A DNA stretch of 32,318 bases from Fidelibacterota bacterium (GTDB lineage: Bacteria; Fidelibacterota; Marinisomatia; Marinisomatales; TCS55), in NCBI GenBank assembly GCA_030746535.1, contig JASLML010000018.1, positions 1 through 32,318 of the forward strand, given 5' to 3'. Below, piece by piece: positions 1 to 13,028 of this stretch (its first letter is position 1; each line of letters opens with the position of its first letter). Position numbers and translations under genes: made by a program. A model generated the notes under the pieces. The model saw nothing but the letters and a program-made list of their open reading frames with translations. It searched no databases and was not told the origin of the DNA.

Positions 1-420
1 GCCGGGAAGAAGGCCGGCCCTTTCAGACGGACTATCCGCAACGGGGGAAATAACAGTGATGTATCCGTTTAAAATATCGAATTCGATACCGATTCCCTGG
101 AACTTGCCCCTGAAAAGCTCATCCACATCTTTTTGCTTTTTCGCAGGGATGTAAATGGAGTGAGGATCGAGCTCCTTCATAATTCCGGAAAAAGCACCAT
201 CCATTAGTTTTTCCATATTTATATCTTCAAAATACAGCTCATTCACATGGTATAATATCTGGTTCATGGTACGCATTTTGTTTTCAATGATGCTGTAAGA
301 GTTTTGCGCAGAAAAGAAATGTTTCTGTACGAACGGTAGCGCAATAAATAAGGTTATCAGTATTCCTGCAAAAAGAGTGATAAATCGATTGCTGCGCATT
401 GCTGATTTAGAGTAACGCAT
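1..420 (-). CDS. S41 family C-terminal processing peptidase (CtpA-like), N-terminal part; truncated by window edge
   Basis: My translation of the reverse complement from ATG at 420: MRYSKSAMRSNRFITLFAGILITLFIALPFVQKHFFSAQNSYSIIENKMRTMNQILYHVNELYFEDINMEKLMDGAFSGIMKELDPHSIYIPAKKQKDVDELFRGKFQGIGIEFDILNGYITVISPVADSPSERAGLLPG. Signal anchor plus LDPHS and F.G.GIGIE, the start of a PDZ domain as in CtpA. Absent from the ORF track because it runs off the window. Confidence 0.88.
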   Translation of the reverse strand, partial: MRYSKSAMRSNRFITLFAGILITLFIALPFVQKHFFSAQNSYSIIENKMRTMNQILYHVNELYFEDINMEKLMDGAFSGIMKELDPHSIYIPAKKQKDVDELFRGKFQGIGIEFDILNGYITVISPVADSPSERAGLLPG

Positions 421-454: not shown

Positions 455-1366
455 CTACAATCCAAAATATACCATTGCCCGAATAGTAACTCCCTGTATC
501 GCCGATTTTGGAGAATCATCTATTGGATAATGATCGTTCAGAACCCAGCCGCTTTTAGCTATCGTTCCTTTGTTGAACCCGGCACTGATTCGAAGTCCCA
601 TTCTATCTAAGAATTGCCACTTCACAGCGACATATGGCTGAAAGTTGAAAAATGTACCAGTCAAATTCGTCATGCTGTGGCTAACATTTACGGGCATCAG
701 GTATTGCCCTTGAAGAGTATCTATTGCTGATTGCAGTGTTGTGCCGGTGGTGTCTACGGGATAATAAATTGTTCCGTTTGTTACTTCGCCGTACATATTG
801 TTAGAAAAAAGATCATTCCATTCGGGATTACCTGCAAATTGGTCAAATGATAAATTGACCCTTCCTATGCCCATTAGCGCACCGGCAGTAATCTCCAGAT
901 CGCGATACACGGGAACTACATATTCCATGGTTATTGCTCCCAGCAAAAACGAAAATCTGGCCCTGATGGAAGGCTTGGGGAATTGGCTTTCGTATGCTAC
1001 TGCATAATCGCCCGTTGATCCCGCTGGCGGAGCCTGATATCCGCTGACGGTATCCCTGTTCACATAGAGGTATACATCAAAAATATCCGTTATTTCCGAG
1101 CTTCCCATTCCGGCATATCCGCCGAGTCTCCAGCGTCCGGCAATGTGGGCAAACCCTTCGCCGCCGTGAATTACAAACGGAGTTTTAAATTCGGCAGGAT
1201 CCAAACCCAAAGATTTCATTTTATTGCTTCCGGGGATAGAGTCCAGCGTCATGTACATTGCGCTGTAGCCGATTCCTCCGCCGTAGAATTCCTCCACGGG
1301 GAATATATCTCCCTGTGCAGGTACAACAATCGGAAAAAGTAAGACAGTAAGAACTGCCCTTCGCAT
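455..1366 (-). CDS. Putative outer-membrane beta-barrel-like protein with signal peptide
   Basis: Inside ORF 455..1435. Likely start is the internal Met at 1366 (MRRAVLTVLLFPIVVPAQG, a good signal peptide). The body has alternating Gly/aromatic strands and ends ...GVTIRAMVYFGL. Confidence 0.6.
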   Translation of the reverse strand: MRRAVLTVLLFPIVVPAQGDIFPVEEFYGGGIGYSAMYMTLDSIPGSNKMKSLGLDPAEFKTPFVIHGGEGFAHIAGRWRLGGYAGMGSSEITDIFDVYLYVNRDTVSGYQAPPAGSTGDYAVAYESQFPKPSIRARFSFLLGAITMEYVVPVYRDLEITAGALMGIGRVNLSFDQFAGNPEWNDLFSNNMYGEVTNGTIYYPVDTTGTTLQSAIDTLQGQYLMPVNVSHSMTNLTGTFFNFQPYVAVKWQFLDRMGLRISAGFNKGTIAKSGWVLNDHYPIDDSPKSAIQGVTIRAMVYFGL

Positions 1367-1510
1367 ATTGGCTCGGATATTGGTCATTTGATATTGAATG
1401 AAATTACAATTTAGAATGATAGCCGTGAATATCAAATGTCAAAAAAGGTTTCCCTATTTATGCATAATACTTTTTACCGATAAGGGCCTTTTGCTTTGAT
1501 TATTCCGAGG

Positions 1511-1609: not shown

Positions 1610-3691
1610 ATGAATGGAATGAAGGGAATCGTTCAAGTATGGATTTATCCGGCAATCATATTTGTTCTGACAGCTATACGTTTGTTTCCGGGCAGCACTT
1701 ATGTTATACCAGGCTACGATTTAGATAGAGATGGTTTTGGTGAATTTATATTGATCAACGATACAAGCATACAATACGTAGAAATGGCAAATGATTTTGG
1801 GCATAACAAGGTTTGGTCAAAATCATTTGATGATCTCCCATTTTTGATACATCATTCTGAATTGGTGAACGCTACAGATTCCTCAGCGCAATTATTGGTT
1901 TTTAGCGGCACAACAGCATCATCAGATAATGAAGCGATATCCACACTCTTGAATGGATTCCTTTGGTCAGATTCAAGTTTTTCGAACGTACCTATACCAT
2001 TGGTGTCTGGCAATGTGAATGGCGACCGCTTTCGGCCGGGGCACATTGCATTTTCAGAAACTCTCAACCTAGCTGCTGTTGCCGCTAACAGTCCATCCAG
2101 AAATGTTATGCTATATAAACCGGGAAAAGATGACAGCGGCTTTGCATTGATGCACAAAATTGAAACAATTTCAATGCACAACGGACTTGGTAAAATAATG
2201 TGTGAATGGTTTGGGCCAAGACATGACCTCCTTCTTGCGGTATTTTCGATCGAATCGGATTCTATTGTGATCGATGTTTTTCAAGAAAACTCATGGGACC
2301 AACCGGCATATTCCGGGAAGTTTGGCGTTCCTCCATCGCCGATCTTATCAAATCTGATTTTATCTCGCGACCTATCGGGAGACGGTTTTGCTGATGTACT
2401 GATGCCATTTGAAAATGATCATGTTTATGCCCTTTCAGTAGTGGATTCCATACTATCATTTTCACTATCTGACATCAGTCGGGAGGGGCTCTTTACCCTA
2501 CCAGATTCTGCTACGTCTGAGGGAATTAATACCCTTTTTGCAAAGCAGATCAGCGCCGGATTGCTAGATCCGGATTTTATGCTGCTCTTTGAAAGCGGCT
2601 TCCCCGATTCAGTGGATTTGGCATTTATTGATACTATTTCCGTAGGCGATACCATTTCAATCTCAGTTTCCCCTGATTCATCCGCAGGTTTTTATAGTTT
2701 TCGATGGACAAGGCGCCCTCCGCAATCTTCATATTTTGATCCTTTATCAGGATCGATTCAGTGGATTCCTTCGGAACAAGATATTGGACACCATATTATT
2801 TCATATGCATACCAAGTGCGAATCCGAGAATTTCTACTTGAAGATACTGACGAGTTTGGAGACCGCCATCAAATTGTGCCTATGTTGGCCGCTGGTGACA
2901 GCACGTGGGGTATTGTTGTCATTGATTCCGCTGGGTCCGACCTGCCGCCTGTTATATATCCGCAGTTTGAAAAGCGGATGTTTTCGGTTGCGGTAAGAAC
3001 AGATCAATATGATTCCACTGCCTATGATTTTACAGGTGTTCCTTCCTATATCTTGTCAACAGAGATACTTCCAGGCCGCAGCGGTCTGCACCACTCCATT
3101 TCCACCAATATTGCTGCACTTCCTATTGAAGATGAAATTTCATTCTTATATGAGTCTTCTGCAAAGGCGAATAATGCACTGGTAACCCTGACACTTATTC
3201 ATGATCTTAATTCAAATGTGCTTTCTGCTGCCCTTAATCCTGCCTTAGATTCACTCCCGCAGACATTTTATCCGGGAGATTGGGATTATCAGCTTAGCGC
3301 TTACCCGGAATATTTATTCCAGGGTTTTAAGCAGGATATAATTATGGATTCACTGGAACAATCTATAGTGTTTCATACTGCGGACACGGATTTACAAAAG
3401 CAATCCTTTACGCAGTGGATTGAAGTTGTTGCCCCTTCAAGGCCCGATCATGTAATGAGAATATTTTTCTATGACGGAAGTTTACAAAACATTTCAGGAA
3501 CCGTTAGATTCCGAGATGACGGATCCGCAACAACAGTGGCAGAATTTAATTTTTCGGAAGAATTTTATCCTGCAATAATGATGTCAAATATGATTCATTC
3601 AGATCAAGATTCAATTCGTACCAAAGTGATACCCGCAGTACGGCTGGAACGCAGAACAACCTCTGAAAATTCAGAGATTTCGGACTCATGA
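1610..3691 (+). CDS. Secreted FG-GAP/VCBS-like repeat protein with Ig/cadherin-like module
   Basis: ORF 1604..3691. The called start at 1604 is GTG; ATGs at 1610 or 1619 are more plausible. N-terminal hydrophobic segment. Asp-rich loops DLDRDGFGEF and DLSGDGFADVLMPF; module FYSFRW...PP...SGSIQWIPSEQDIGHHIISY. Confidence 0.7.
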   Translation: MNGMKGIVQVWIYPAIIFVLTAIRLFPGSTYVIPGYDLDRDGFGEFILINDTSIQYVEMANDFGHNKVWSKSFDDLPFLIHHSELVNATDSSAQLLVFSGTTASSDNEAISTLLNGFLWSDSSFSNVPIPLVSGNVNGDRFRPGHIAFSETLNLAAVAANSPSRNVMLYKPGKDDSGFALMHKIETISMHNGLGKIMCEWFGPRHDLLLAVFSIESDSIVIDVFQENSWDQPAYSGKFGVPPSPILSNLILSRDLSGDGFADVLMPFENDHVYALSVVDSILSFSLSDISREGLFTLPDSATSEGINTLFAKQISAGLLDPDFMLLFESGFPDSVDLAFIDTISVGDTISISVSPDSSAGFYSFRWTRRPPQSSYFDPLSGSIQWIPSEQDIGHHIISYAYQVRIREFLLEDTDEFGDRHQIVPMLAAGDSTWGIVVIDSAGSDLPPVIYPQFEKRMFSVAVRTDQYDSTAYDFTGVPSYILSTEILPGRSGLHHSISTNIAALPIEDEISFLYESSAKANNALVTLTLIHDLNSNVLSAALNPALDSLPQTFYPGDWDYQLSAYPEYLFQGFKQDIIMDSLEQSIVFHTADTDLQKQSFTQWIEVVAPSRPDHVMRIFFYDGSLQNISGTVRFRDDGSATTVAEFNFSEEFYPAIMMSNMIHSDQDSIRTKVIPAVRLERRTTSENSEISDS

Positions 3692-6600
3692 TATTACCCA
3701 TTCGAAATATAACAATTATTGTGGCTGTTCTCATGTCAGCAGCATTTCCGCAGGAATTAAAAATTATTTACATGGACGGCACCTTTGATCTTGATCAGGA
3801 CAAGCTCCACGAATTTGTTACAATTGAAACTGGCACCATTGATGAATCAGAGGTTTCAGTTGTCCGCTATTATGAAATGGATGAGGATGGATATCAGCGC
3901 CTGAACTGGGAATTGGAAACTCCAGAAGGGCTGTTAGGAAGCTTTGTGGGCGTAAAGGTTGGAGACCTAAACGGAGATGGCATCCCGGAGCTGGTAACAG
4001 TGTTAAATGTTTCTGATGTTGAAGAAGAAGAAATTCTTCAGCCGATAATTTTTTATTATTCCTGGGATGAAGATGGATTTGAGGAGAATCCAGGCGGAAC
4101 TTTGAATTTATCGACCGGGAAAAAGTTTCTTCGCTGCCACAATCTTGATCTGGTTAATGTAGATGGAGACAGCGATGAAGAAATCGCCATCTCGCTCGGA
4201 AGTCCGGTTCGAGGAATTAACATATTGGATATTTCGGAGGATGGATCATTGCGTGTGCTACAGGAATTAAGGCCGGAAGGGCTGGAATCCGGAATCGGGT
4301 TTGTATATGCAGCATCTATTGATATTGACCGTGATGGATTTGACGAATTGCTCGCATTTACGCCGGAAGGTAACACGCTTAGAGTACAGCCATTTTTCAA
4401 TGTAGGCGGTGAATTTTTAACAGGAGATTTGGTTGAGCAGGAAATTCAGGGCATAGATGGATTTTTACCGTTCAGGATTTCAAGAACCGATTGGGACGCT
4501 GACGGATTTCAGGATGTTCTACTGCCTTTTCAAAGCGGTCATGTCATTGGGCTTACGGTATCACTAGGTCTGGTTTCAATTGCTGTACTTCCTGTGGATG
4601 GTGGACCGATGTCTGATATGAATGTTAGCGATTTTAATCATGACGGTTTCAGCGATTTGCTGCTTGTATCCGGTGAAATGAATATTCTTTCTCTTGCTTA
4701 CGGCACCGATGCCGGACTGATTAGCCCTGTAGAATATTTCACTCTTGAGGCGGAAGACGAAGACACGCAAGTATTTACCTCTCTTCCAATTGTATCGGGT
4801 GGGAAATACACCGGATCAATTGTTGCAGCCGGCTGGAACGGAAGACAAACGTCAGTTTTTATTACGGATATCGGCAAGTCGCCGGACCTAACTCCCCCGC
4901 CTCCGGGGATTACAGAACTGGACATAAGGGATCAGGAAGATATGCTGGATATGTATCCGGAGCTAAATCCTGAGATGATTTTAGATTTACCCCGAGTACC
5001 AAAGCCGATGGAATCGATGGGGCAGCCGCTTCCCGCAGGTGTGCTTCCCAGGCATGTTTTACCGGTGAATCAATCTTTTGCTTACACCATTCCGGAGGAT
5101 GAGGCAATGCGGTTTTACAGCTTCCGCTGGCTCGAACCGCCGCCGAAAGGAATGTTTTTTCATTACGAGTCCAAATCCATTAGGTGGATTCCGGATGAAA
5201 CACAGCTCGGTGCGTATCACATATCGTATCATGTGGAAATGAAGGTCGGAGAAAATGTAAAGCTGGAAACTTCCGATAAGGATACACTATTGACCTACCA
5301 AATGATTCCGGATTTAGAAGGTTATGATGAAAGGCTGTGGATTTATGTCAATGATTTGCCCGCGTTTTTAAGCGAACCTTCGCGAACGGAGTTTATCGCA
5401 AATTCGGAGTTTGTATATAAACCACTGGTGCAGGACAGAAATAGCGATGCGGAATTGCGCTATGAGTTGGAAGTAAAACCGGAAGGAATGCTGATTGACG
5501 GCACAAATACAATCAGATGGAAAACCGACAGTACACATGTGGAAGTTTATGATGTTCGAATCAATGTTTCTGATGGATTTGACCGTGCGCTTCAGGAATT
5601 CAGGCTGTTTGCCCGCGCGGGAATAAAAATTCTATCCCAATCTGAAAATGTAATTCCGGTTGATGAGCCTTACGCTTATAAAGTGGAGGTATGGCGTCCG
5701 GATTTGGAATATAAAGTTGGCTATGAATTGATTGATCCGCCTGAGGGTATGACCATTTCCAAAGATGGGCAAATCGAGTGGATTCCTACGGCAACACAAA
5801 TTGACACCCAATCTTATTTTGTGGTAGCTAATCATGGAATGGCAAGGGACACTCAATGGGTAGATTTATTTGTCAATCATCCGCCAATTATTGAAAAAAC
5901 TCTTCCGGAGATGAATGTGATTAACCTTGGCGAAGATTTTGATTTTGAAATTGTTGCTCAGGATCCCAATGCTGATGATAAGCTTATATTCACAGCGGTA
6001 GAAATGCCGGAAGGGATGCGGATGGATCCGTATACAGCAAGAATTCACTGGGAGCCGAATGCTTCCAATATCGACTTTTCACATCTCAAGATTGAAGTGA
6101 CAGATGGAAGAGTAACGAGAATTATTGAATCGGACTTTTTTGTGAATGCGCCGGTTCGTATTGTATCACTGCCGCCGATGATTGGGGAAATGGATACGCC
6201 GTATGAATACCCCATTCTCATTTCCGATCAAAACAAAGGATCGCTTTTGCCATACACAGATCCTGTTAGGCTGAATGATGTACAGCGGGCCAGGATTTAT
6301 GCGATTAATATTTCAGATGATATTTACAAAGAGAATATTGACCGCTACATTCGCGATTGGGAAACTGCGGAGGCTGTGTATTTAATTGATCCTGAGCATA
6401 TGGGAGAAGAGGATTTCGCCCGCCTGAATTTGAAAAAATATGTTCACTCAATATTTTATGAGAATGAACGGCTGATCGTTATTCTTGAGACATTAGATGA
6501 GCGGACTGTATCCATCAGGGATGTTTTATGGGAATTTTTCCAAGGAAGCAAGGGGAAGCCGCCAAGGGTGTTCGTAGAAAGACTGAGCCCCTATAGGTAT

Positions 6601-7377
6601 ACGCTAGTCGATTTTCCAGATGCCATGGTTGTGGATGAATATTCCGGCATGCTGAAATGGACTCCGGGAAAAGATCAATTTGACACCCATCCCGTAAAAG
6701 TGATCGTTTCTGATGGCTACACCAGAGATGAGCAGATATATGATGTGTACGTTAATTATCCTCCGGTTATTGTATCCAACGCTCCTGCATCCGGAATGGT
6801 GGAAGAAGTATACAAATATGAAATTCGTGTTGATGATAAAAATTCTGATTCTGAACTAAAATATTCTCTGATTAAGGGCCCCCAAGGAATGCAGCTCAGC
6901 GATAAGGGAAAAATCGTTTGGATTCCAAAAACAGCACAAATTAACAACAATTATTTTTCTGTGAAGGTGGAAGACGGATATACAGAAGATGTGCAGGATA
7001 ATAATATTTTCGTAAACATTAATCCATCCATTATATCAACTCCCAAACCCGTTGCCCTTACCGGACATGAATTCCGGTATAAAGTAATGGCGGAGGATTT
7101 AAACAGTGACAGGATTCAGTTTAGAGCAATCAAACTTCCGAAGTATTCCGTTTTTAACAGGAAGACCGGATTATTCCGCTGGAAGCCACGTCCATCCCAG
7201 CGCGGTCCGAACGATATCATTATAACGGCAATTGATGAAAGAGGCGCAACAACAGCGCATGAATTTCAGGTCCATGTGTTTGAAGATCCAAGCGCCCGTC
7301 AAATGGTAAACAGAGGCTGGCCGCTGCTACTGACCTTTGTAGGTGTAATGTTCGCTTGGGGAATGGCGCAGTTGTAG
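3688..7377 (+). CDS. Large FG-GAP/VCBS plus He_PIG/cadherin-like repeat protein with C-terminal hydrophobic helix
   Basis: 1229 aa ORF overlapping the previous stop (ATGA). Signal peptide MILPIRNITIIVAVLMSAAFPQ. Loops DLNGDGIPEL, DIDRDGFDEL, DWDADGFQDV and DFNHDGFSDL. Then several ~90 aa modules with the W-x-P motif (IRWIP, IEWIP, IHWEP, LKWTP, IVWIP, FRWKP) and 'VSDGY/F...V'. C-terminus WPLLLTFVGVMFAWGMAQL. Confidence 0.75.
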   Translation: MILPIRNITIIVAVLMSAAFPQELKIIYMDGTFDLDQDKLHEFVTIETGTIDESEVSVVRYYEMDEDGYQRLNWELETPEGLLGSFVGVKVGDLNGDGIPELVTVLNVSDVEEEEILQPIIFYYSWDEDGFEENPGGTLNLSTGKKFLRCHNLDLVNVDGDSDEEIAISLGSPVRGINILDISEDGSLRVLQELRPEGLESGIGFVYAASIDIDRDGFDELLAFTPEGNTLRVQPFFNVGGEFLTGDLVEQEIQGIDGFLPFRISRTDWDADGFQDVLLPFQSGHVIGLTVSLGLVSIAVLPVDGGPMSDMNVSDFNHDGFSDLLLVSGEMNILSLAYGTDAGLISPVEYFTLEAEDEDTQVFTSLPIVSGGKYTGSIVAAGWNGRQTSVFITDIGKSPDLTPPPPGITELDIRDQEDMLDMYPELNPEMILDLPRVPKPMESMGQPLPAGVLPRHVLPVNQSFAYTIPEDEAMRFYSFRWLEPPPKGMFFHYESKSIRWIPDETQLGAYHISYHVEMKVGENVKLETSDKDTLLTYQMIPDLEGYDERLWIYVNDLPAFLSEPSRTEFIANSEFVYKPLVQDRNSDAELRYELEVKPEGMLIDGTNTIRWKTDSTHVEVYDVRINVSDGFDRALQEFRLFARAGIKILSQSENVIPVDEPYAYKVEVWRPDLEYKVGYELIDPPEGMTISKDGQIEWIPTATQIDTQSYFVVANHGMARDTQWVDLFVNHPPIIEKTLPEMNVINLGEDFDFEIVAQDPNADDKLIFTAVEMPEGMRMDPYTARIHWEPNASNIDFSHLKIEVTDGRVTRIIESDFFVNAPVRIVSLPPMIGEMDTPYEYPILISDQNKGSLLPYTDPVRLNDVQRARIYAINISDDIYKENIDRYIRDWETAEAVYLIDPEHMGEEDFARLNLKKYVHSIFYENERLIVILETLDERTVSIRDVLWEFFQGSKGKPPRVFVERLSPYRYTLVDFPDAMVVDEYSGMLKWTPGKDQFDTHPVKVIVSDGYTRDEQIYDVYVNYPPVIVSNAPASGMVEEVYKYEIRVDDKNSDSELKYSLIKGPQGMQLSDKGKIVWIPKTAQINNNYFSVKVEDGYTEDVQDNNIFVNINPSIISTPKPVALTGHEFRYKVMAEDLNSDRIQFRAIKLPKYSVFNRKTGLFRWKPRPSQRGPNDIIITAIDERGATTAHEFQVHVFEDPSARQMVNRGWPLLLTFVGVMFAWGMAQL

Positions 7378-7382
7378 CGCTA

Positions 7383-8414
7383 CTAAAGCTCGAGGATCTG
7401 AAGAAGTTTCTTTAGACCTGTTTCTTGAGGCTGAAATGCAATGCCGACAGCAAAAATCGGAATTTCTCCAACCTCGAATTTTTTTATCTTAACCAAATCT
7501 TTTTCGGTGGTAACAATACATTCCGCTGATAATGCGCTCGCCTGTTGTTGAATTATAATTAAATCATCTTCTAAATACTGATAATGGTCCGGTTTTATTT
7601 CTTCTCCGACAATTTTTGCTCCTGTATTTGCAATGACTGAATGAAAACTACCCGGATCACCTATCCCTGATAAGGCAAATACATTTTTCCCGGAAAGAGA
7701 TTCCAGAGGATTATCATTGCCGGCAGTGTCTGATATTGTTTTTTCCGGGACCATGATGCTCTTAAACATTTCCAAGTCAGTATGAGTAAGCGGTGATACT
7801 GTTTCTCCAAGGTTAGTCTTTGTCAGGAATATGATATCTGCGCGCTTCAACTGGCTTTTAGGTTCGCGAAGCAGACCATAGGGTAATAAATTGCTATCAG
7901 AATTTTTCGATTGGGAATTGATAAGGACAATATCCAAATCTCTCTCGATAGCCCGGTGTTGAAATCCGTCATCCAGTATGATAATGTCCGGGTTAAAATT
8001 CTCGATTAAATACGTACCGCCCCGCACCCTGTTTTCATCAGCAACAATTGGAATTTGGTTTATTTTATTTGCCATAAAAACCGGCTCATCTCCCGCGTCA
8101 GAAACAGATGCAAAGTTTCCCTTCCCATCGGAAACCAACACAGTTCCCTTTGATTTTCTCCCGTAGCCGCGAGTTAAAACTGCAGTGCGCTTCCCCCGGC
8201 TTTCAAGAAGTCTTGCTAAAAAAATTACTGCAGGTGTTTTTCCTGTTCCGCCCACGGATATATTTCCTATGCTGATAATTTTGCAGGACAACTTTTGGGA
8301 CACAAAAAATCCAATATTGTAAAACCAATTCCTCCAGAAAATCATAGCACGATAAAACAGCGCAAGGGGGAATAAAAAGATTTTAAGTGGTCTATGCAGT
8401 ATGGCTCTCAACAT
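7383..8414 (-). CDS. lpxK: Tetraacyldisaccharide 4'-kinase
   Basis: N-terminal membrane helix then IISIGNISVGGTGKTP Walker A, AVLTRGYGRKSKG, DIIILDDGFQHRAIERDLDIVL, all characteristic of LpxK. Confidence 0.95.
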   Translation of the reverse strand: MLRAILHRPLKIFLFPLALFYRAMIFWRNWFYNIGFFVSQKLSCKIISIGNISVGGTGKTPAVIFLARLLESRGKRTAVLTRGYGRKSKGTVLVSDGKGNFASVSDAGDEPVFMANKINQIPIVADENRVRGGTYLIENFNPDIIILDDGFQHRAIERDLDIVLINSQSKNSDSNLLPYGLLREPKSQLKRADIIFLTKTNLGETVSPLTHTDLEMFKSIMVPEKTISDTAGNDNPLESLSGKNVFALSGIGDPGSFHSVIANTGAKIVGEEIKPDHYQYLEDDLIIIQQQASALSAECIVTTEKDLVKIKKFEVGEIPIFAVGIAFQPQETGLKKLLQILEL

Positions 8415-10188: not shown

Positions 10189-10764
10189 TCAGGAAAAATA
10201 TGCCCGCAAGGTAATGAACATCAATATTATGACGATGTTCTGTAGTGTTCGCTTTTCCGTGATAAGAGTTTCGCCCAGCGGCAATGGTTCTCTGGGCTCT
10301 GCATCTTTCCAAGCAGAAAGCCTTGGAAGAAGAGCGCGTACGTTTTTCCTGTACGTTTCATAATCTTCACCAAAAAGATTTACCAAGGTTTCTTCTTCCA
10401 AGGAAACAATCAGGGAATACTGAACAATAAAAAATGTAACAGTTACTCCAAGCATCACAGGAAGATTGGGTGAGCCGGCAATCAGAACAATCCCTGCAAA
10501 AATCATGAGATTCCCTATATAAAGCGGATTTCTAACCCTGCTGTATGGGCCGGACGTGCATAAATAAGGGGCGCCAACATCTCGGGTTCGTGTGGCGCCG
10601 CCGGCATGGCTAACCGCCCAGATTCTGATGAATTCACCGATTAAAAGTAATCCTGTTCCTGGGATAATTTGTGTTATCTCAGGCTGCGCAAAGTAGATGA
10701 TAGTCAGCGCAATGGGAATAGGTGTAAAGCTTCTGAACCGAAAAAAGAAATCGCGGATATCCAT
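10189..10764 (-). CDS. Isoprenylcysteine carboxyl methyltransferase/PEMT-like integral membrane methyltransferase
   Basis: Multiple hydrophobic helices plus GPYSRVRNPLYIGN and EEETLVNLFGEDYETYRKNVRALLPRL, typical of ICMT/PEMT-type membrane methyltransferases. Confidence 0.82.
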   Translation of the reverse strand: MDIRDFFFRFRSFTPIPIALTIIYFAQPEITQIIPGTGLLLIGEFIRIWAVSHAGGATRTRDVGAPYLCTSGPYSRVRNPLYIGNLMIFAGIVLIAGSPNLPVMLGVTVTFFIVQYSLIVSLEEETLVNLFGEDYETYRKNVRALLPRLSAWKDAEPREPLPLGETLITEKRTLQNIVIILMFITLRAYFS

Positions 10765-11920: not shown

Positions 11921-12502
11921 GTGTCTGAAAATTTACGGTCAGGCTTCGGATTTCTGTTCCCGCTAGGCGCCTTAGGTGGATTTATTTTTTCCCTGATTGC
12001 CGAACAATATGTTCTCGGAATCATCTTTGTGGTTGCAGGAATATTGGGATGGTTTGTTTATATGGCCGTTATGGAAATAACGACGCCATCGGAAACAGGC
12101 AATATTATCATTCTATTCGGGACACTGCTTTCCGTTGGCGTTTTTCTCTCATATGGATTATCACAAAATATGTTTGGCGGCTTGGAGTTAAGTCCGGAAG
12201 GCGGTTTGATGTCATTGATTATTCTTTTCTTTACGGTGCTATTGGGATTCGCATTCAAAAGAACGCTTTCGCCCAATAACAATGCACACAAATTAACGGG
12301 CCACGAACAATCGCTTGTGCGCGAAGCTCTTGAAGGGGACAGCGATGACAACACTAAGGTCATTGTTCTAAAACAAGAAGAAGATGCCTCTTCAGAAGAG
12401 GAAGATGAATGGGATTACGAGAGTTATAATCCATACATGTACGCCTATCCTCCGGAATATTACGGAGATGAATATGAGTACGAGGAGGAAGAAGAGGAAT
12501 AA
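11921..12502 (+). CDS. Uncharacterised multi-TM membrane protein with acidic/Tyr-rich C-terminal tail
   Basis: 193 aa, GTG start (MSENLRSGFGFLFPLG...). About four hydrophobic segments, then DASSEEEDEWDYESYNPYMYAYPPEYYGDEYEYEEEEEE. Confidence 0.65.
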   Translation: MSENLRSGFGFLFPLGALGGFIFSLIAEQYVLGIIFVVAGILGWFVYMAVMEITTPSETGNIIILFGTLLSVGVFLSYGLSQNMFGGLELSPEGGLMSLIILFFTVLLGFAFKRTLSPNNNAHKLTGHEQSLVREALEGDSDDNTKVIVLKQEEDASSEEEDEWDYESYNPYMYAYPPEYYGDEYEYEEEEEE

Positions 12503-12531: not shown

Positions 12532-12553
12532 AAGGCGGTTTTCCGCCTTTTTT
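12532..12553 (+). terminator. Rho-independent terminator after the acidic-tail membrane protein gene
   Basis: Perfect 7-bp stem AAGGCGG-TTTT-CCGCCTT followed by TTTT; about 30 nt downstream of the stop at 12502. Confidence 0.85.
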
Positions 12554-13028
12554 ATTTTCTATAAGGCTCCGTCATTGCAAGCACAATATTTGTACTTCCT
12601 ATAAAACTCTTGTGCTGCACAAGTGTCGATTTAATGAATAAATAATATGTAACAGGATAAAGAATGTGAAACCACCATTCCGACACCCTTCCCATAAAAT
12701 ACAAGCCGTCAAAAATTACCATTGCCATAAACACGAGTGTTGTCAGCATGGTCGGCGGATATAAGCTGCGCTTGAGCGCCAGCATTCCTTTAATGAACCG
12801 GTCTCCCAGCTCGGAATGCTCTTCCGAGAATTCTCTGACATTTACTCCTGTGCCGACAAAAAAGAACATAACAAGCGTTTGACCCGCAAGAAAAATGATA
12901 CTTACAAAAATATCCAGTGTAATGTGCTGTCGAGCCCAAAAATCAAAATAATGGTTTATTCCGATTGCGGTAATCCCAAGCGCTGAAATTCCCAGCAGCA
13001 CATAGGACAATATCATAAAAAACCACAT
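12552..13028 (-). CDS. Conserved-looking multi-TM membrane protein of unknown function
   Basis: 158 aa with four or five hydrophobic segments (MWFFMILSYVLLGISALGITAIG...); 10 bp downstream of ychF on the same strand. No family recognised. Confidence 0.6.
   Translation of the reverse strand: MWFFMILSYVLLGISALGITAIGINHYFDFWARQHITLDIFVSIIFLAGQTLVMFFFVGTGVNVREFSEEHSELGDRFIKGMLALKRSLYPPTMLTTLVFMAMVIFDGLYFMGRVSEWWFHILYPVTYYLFIKSTLVQHKSFIGSTNIVLAMTEPYRK

Follow-up and report, generated by a model that had tools for sequence, protein, structure and literature searches.

An FG-GAP propeller and Ig-like protein pair and an adjoining probable barrel gene point to an envelope module of Fidelibacterota

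Two overlapping genes, A and B, and the neighboring gene c5, all located on a 32,318-nucleotide stretch of Fidelibacterota DNA (the window), point to an undescribed envelope module. B and c5 were shown to be inherited and lost together, with c5 being the steadiest genomic partner of B. The best explanation of the locus, which we put forward tentatively, is a conserved Fidelibacterota (Marinimicrobia) envelope cassette of c5 and an anchored rod, B, joined by A in the order to which the window belongs, in which B would link the membranes. Members of this phylum are widespread in the ocean, freshwater and the subsurface and are nearly uncultured. B is conserved across most of the phylum at approximately the rate of the lipid A enzymes, has no described role and is lost as a block with c5; thus, B marks an envelope function that is overlooked by the current annotation of 'FG-GAP repeat protein' and that can be tested by use of natural deletions of c5 and B (families f9 and f13).

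Gene content of the locus and domains of A and B

The window corresponds to the entire contig C9 of a draft genome, which measures 1.47 Mb and is 85% complete. The TonB, ExbD, ExbD, ExbB, S41/PDZ protease and c5 genes of the locus are on one strand and A and B on the opposite strand. The S41/PDZ (CtpA-type) protease gene (positions 1-420, reverse strand) is incomplete at the window edge, and complete S41 relatives were found to run on into ExbB-ExbD-ExbD-TonB. On the 3' side of B, a convergent LpxK gene (7383-8414, reverse strand) bounds the cassette and is followed by acyltransferase, LpxB, PEMT-like and MocA-type genes. Families f20, f24, f30 and f31 of the phylum also largely retain the gene order of the cassette. 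Among the flanking genes, the methyltransferase encoded at 10189-10764 near lpxB was found to have sub-cut-off similarity (8e-17) to the Leptospira lipid A 1-phosphate methyltransferase LmtA, and its possible role is the methylation of lipid A. The genes at 11921-12502 (c8) and 12552-13028 had no Pfam match, and c8 occupies the same position in approximately 32 regions. At one locus of another genome (L140 of G184), a second B-like gene, the sequence of which is partly N, adjoins a TonB gene.

Gene A (1610-3691, forward strand, with an alternative GTG start at 1604) encodes a protein of 693 aa with an N-terminal hydrophobic signal, a propeller, one Ig-like domain and a C-terminal beta domain. 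The propeller (approximately residues 28-290; 1691-2479), as delineated in the AlphaFold model, is of degenerate FG-GAP type with two Ca-loop-like motifs remaining, and the Pfam gathering score was not reached by A (best FG-GAP 13.6 bits versus a cut-off of 22.1). The Ig-like domain (approximately residues 339-440; 2624-2929) holds FYSFRWTRRPPQ...SIQWIPSEQDIGHHIISY and is paralogous to the first Ig domain (Ig1) of B. The C-terminal beta domain (approximately residues 455-663; 2972-3598) carries the motifs HDL..N and YPEYxFxGF; it was matched by no model of Pfam or NCBIfam and, in a profile search, by no PDB sequence at a significant level. The domains of A were well shown in the AlphaFold model (pLDDT 76, pTM 0.60), with poor relative placement. 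In four families (f3, f4, f5 and f8) the upstream partner of B is a variant, A', that has an acidic linker and is devoid of the C-terminal domain.

Gene B (3688-7377, forward strand) encodes a protein of 1229 aa composed of a signal, an FG-GAP beta-propeller (residues 22-396; 3751-4875) with five to six Ca-loop-like motifs, a linker, seven Ig-like (He_PIG) domains (residues 447-1200; 5026-7287) and a C-terminal transmembrane helix, GWPLLLTFVGVMFAWGMAQL (7315-7374). The propeller was delineated from the AlphaFold model, in which the linker is disordered, and the Ig string from this model and Pfam. Within Ig5 is an alpha/beta insert of approximately 100 aa (residues 863-966; 6274-6585), which is strongly conserved in the window's order and, like the C-terminal domain of A, gave no match to Pfam or NCBIfam and no significant one to PDB sequences by profile search. 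As for A, the domains in the AlphaFold model of B (residues 22-1200; pLDDT 83, pTM 0.41) were well shown and their relative placement was poor.

The original prediction of a hydrophobic C-terminal helix in B that is missing from A was borne out by Kyte-Doolittle values of 1.48 over 19 aa for B versus -0.04 for A. By contrast, A had been described as devoid of Ig-like modules, and this proved incorrect, as it holds one such domain (with the shared FYSFRW block) in addition to its own C-terminal beta domain. The description of both products as giant secreted proteins does not fit A, which is only 693 aa, and secretion is doubtful for B in view of its membrane anchor and slow evolution. The FG-GAP and He_PIG domains expected of the pair were above the Pfam gathering scores in B (He_PIG 3.4e-27, FG-GAP_3 3.9e-11 and FG-GAP 1.2e-08), but not in A.

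B thus holds domains of the FG-GAP/VCBS and He_PIG proteins (PF13517, PF01839 and PF05345) above curated cut-offs. It differs from such proteins in the fixed succession of its propeller, seven Ig domains and C-terminal helix, in its vertical inheritance at a fixed locus and in its Ig5 insert of no known family, while A falls below all cut-offs. When the whole models of A and B were searched against the PDB by fold, generic propeller and Ig-string matches only (DDB1, titin and cadherins) were obtained, with an integrin alphaM structure among the matches of the A model. The ectodomain of integrin alpha is analogous to B in architecture, with an N-terminal FG-GAP-like Ca-loop propeller, beta-sandwich domains and a C-terminal membrane helix; however, identity is approximately 9%, there is no global superposition, and B is a bacterial envelope protein that stops right after the helix.

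Kinship of A and B and origin of the duplication

A and B overlap by ATGA at 3688-3691 as predicted, with the ATG of B at 3688-3690 and the TGA of A at 3689-3691. Translational coupling of the two genes had also been proposed; the overlap agrees with this, but no clear Shine-Dalgarno sequence precedes B, so that the inference of coupling is drawn from the overlap. The two sequence blocks quoted as common to A and B are both present. BLASTP aligned the proteins with E=7e-12 over 100 aa (the second block) and E=2e-05 over the propeller, and when profiles built from 29 homologues of A and 34 of B were compared, the probability was 100% and E=6e-44 over 595 columns; the kinship of A and B is therefore solid. 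The original observation is thus upheld, far above chance.

Conservation of the pair was examined in 121 near relatives, with 40 regions compared. B was found in most families of these relatives, its full-length aligned copies being 43-88% identical to B of the window, and A was found directly upstream of B at 20-63% identity. Wherever both genes and intact flanks were present, adjacency, order and strand were the same, and no broken or reordered A-B pair was detected in the 40 regions. The overlap was conserved in kind but not in exact length: most pairs in the family to which the window belongs share 4 nt, pairs of other families are mostly spaced by -1 to +40 nt, and the more negative spacings of a few loci probably reflect start-codon choice. 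In a few loci (e.g., L102) B is split across frames or contigs. One family (f9) was found to retain A without B or c5; thus, A does not strictly need B and must have a role of its own.

These data bear on whether A and B are ordinary FG-GAP/Ig proteins that are adjacent through chance duplication and share no function. FG-GAP and He_PIG are common domains, and A is fast-diverging and is kept alone in f9, all of which would be expected on such grounds. We consider this explanation improbable, however, as adjacency, order and strand have been retained across approximately ten families since a single duplication and B is lost jointly with c5.

The original prediction held that the second copy, B, had gained its Ig modules and helix after duplication, and here the direction was found to be reversed. 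Matches to the B profile were detected in 184 of 245 genomes of the phylum, some of the weaker ones being other propeller or Ig proteins, and the named relatives of B in a scan for close relatives were all Candidatus Neomarinimicrobiota / Marinimicrobia (Fidelibacterota in NCBI). Outside the window's order B usually stands alone; its copies there consist of the propeller and Ig string, and nearly all of them have a C-terminal hydrophobic helix as well. In a propeller tree, which was built quickly and in which some branches are long, A, A' and the B of the order formed one clade apart from the B of other classes (SH-aLRT 97); A, A' and B were each one group, and A' and B were joined with a value of only 84. 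A gain of modules by B was ruled out by the single B found phylum-wide together with this tree. Judged on these sequence comparisons, B was shown to be ancestral, with the propeller and first Ig domain kept by A. As B stands alone phylum-wide and A, A' and the B of the order form a clade, A appears to be the derived copy that lost modules; the simplest reading is that the ancestor of this order underwent a single duplication, followed by loss of modules from A.

Co-inheritance of c5 and B

Gene c5 (455-1435, reverse strand; 326 aa) encodes a signal peptide followed by what is probably a small outer-membrane beta-barrel, with YFGL at its end. Alignment of its homologues revealed the signal, an amphipathic pattern and an aromatic YFGL-type C-terminal ending, and these features, along with its length, make a small outer-membrane barrel probable. 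Matches of c5 to Pfam barrel families were weak (best 0.0015). Neither PorP_SprF (Pfam) nor any NCBIfam model matched among 31 c5 members, no TonB-dependent-receptor domain was detected in c5 by Pfam, and a search of PDB sequences with the c5 profile gave nothing significant.

Presence of B (E<=1e-60) and c5 (E<=1e-50) was compared in 130 genomes of the window's order. Both genes were found in 76 genomes and neither in 44, with B only and c5 only in 5 genomes each. Presence and absence thus agreed in 120 of the 130 genomes (Fisher p ~3e-23, uncorrected for phylogeny); many of the genomes with neither gene belong to one reduced family (f15), and therefore this p value overstates independence. 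Eight of the ten disagreements are at contig ends (G013, G020, G023, G027, G031, G067, G085 and G145), and A is truncated in the other two (G144 and G146).

The absences of c5 and B in three families look like separate losses. In f13 (L194), c5, A and B are all missing, leaving S41 immediately next to LpxK, and the TonB and lipid A genes are intact. In f9 (L083 and L111), A is the only one of these three genes still present, with ExbBD-TonB, S41 and the lipid A genes in place, and in f14 (L193) the TonB side alone is retained. In family f23 (L147 and L148), a single B is divergently oriented relative to two c5 paralogues in tandem, and no TonB cluster is nearby. Outside the order, f26, f27 and f29 were found to have B without an adjacent c5 homologue, with weaker c5-like matches elsewhere in their genomes.

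Evolutionary rates across the order were compared by use of a same-genus locus (L073) as the identity reference. Median identity was 50% for B and 51% for c5, compared to 53% for LpxB, 45% for LpxK, 57% for S41 and 75% for ExbB; A, at 25%, diverges faster than B. The conservation of B approximates that of a core enzyme and differs from that typical of exposed adhesins, which is suggestive as to location. B and c5 evolve about as slowly as LpxB and LpxK, and these rates would be more in keeping with a buried structural role than with exposure as an adhesin.

A proposed membrane-linking cassette and its alternatives

According to the membrane-linking cassette that we tentatively favor, B would be exported by Sec and held by its C-terminal helix in the inner membrane (inner rather than outer is assumed), and its Ig string would cross the periplasm as a rod, the length of which is guessed from the domain count. 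The propeller would meet c5 at the outer membrane, and B would tether the two membranes or act as a scaffold between them. A, with the same propeller and first Ig domain as B, would be soluble in the periplasm and probably binds where B does at the outer membrane, in an accessory or competing role. A more specific proposal is that c5-B(-A) is a trans-envelope system particular to Fidelibacterota, with an inner-membrane-anchored integrin-like rod, a dedicated outer-membrane barrel and, in one order, a duplicated soluble version of the rod; this we regard as doubtful. It may be speculated that the module provides envelope linkage or muropeptide handling. The cell wall of a cultured member of the Fidelibacterota is built with muropeptides of foreign origin (PMC11652737). 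No description of a c5-B-A module, as a family or in a paper, was found in a literature search, which had most subscription journals outside its range; this search also found no paper linking Marinimicrobia with FG-GAP and, for Marinimicrobia with type IX secretion, nothing on the subject.

In Bacteroidota, barrels of the SprF/PorP type serve giant Ig adhesins, with a small barrel gene beside that of the large Ig protein. The placement of c5, a small probable barrel gene, beside the large Ig protein B recalls these pairs, and thus a type IX system was tested for. SprA was detected in all 41 relatives searched (38 over the cut-off) and in none of 14 controls, and type IX cargo tails were likewise present in 41 of 41. 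The genome of the window (G000) has 31 matches to the C-terminal sorting domain TIGR04183 elsewhere and SprA on another contig (C20, 1800-7724). No TIGR04183 match was found in A or B by NCBIfam, and A or B as type IX cargo was ruled out on this basis.

These findings frame the rival in which B (and A) are surface-displayed, adhesin-like proteins and c5 is their outer-membrane anchor or export partner, similar to SprF/PorP. The integrin- and cadherin-like architecture, the adjoining barrel-like gene and the SprA translocon of the relatives are consistent with such a role. It is nonetheless unlikely, as neither A nor B has the C-terminal domain of type IX cargo, no PorP_SprF or NCBIfam match was obtained for c5, and B is anchored by its C-terminal helix and is conserved like the neighboring enzymes.

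Somewhat less likely still is a cassette accessory to TonB-ExbBD transport, with c5 as an uptake pore and B and A as periplasmic proteins that capture substrate or gate the pore. A neighborhood with TonB, ExbB, two ExbD and the S41 protease is widely shared, which would agree with such a function. By contrast, ExbBD-TonB persists where c5 and B were lost (f9, f13 and f14), f23 keeps c5 and B away from any TonB cluster, c5 is devoid of a detectable receptor domain, and no ligand-binding domain was recognised.

GldM/PorM of the type IX motor is a membrane-anchored string of Ig-like domains that is expected to span the periplasm. B, as proposed for the membrane-linking cassette, is similar in this respect; however, its anchor is C-terminal, its propeller is at the far end, there is no sequence match (B had no NCBIfam match of any kind, including the GldM/PorM model TIGR03517), and B is absent from genomes that keep the translocon. 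GldM was found in 1 of the 41 genomes, on a short contig, and not in the genome of the window, so that B could be viewed as the replacement of a missing motor rod, driven by the nearby ExbBD. Families f9, f13, f14 and f15, which are without B, were found to retain SprA as well as cargo tails, which gave 56, 44, 68 and 3 matches in G047, G051, G052 and G053, respectively, and therefore B cannot be a required type IX motor; this candidate was rejected, and the replacement of GldM/PorM by B is largely refuted and very improbable. Apart from the role of B, nearly all of the 41 genomes appear to have a type IX system, as seen in SprA and the cargo tails, without its known motor rod.
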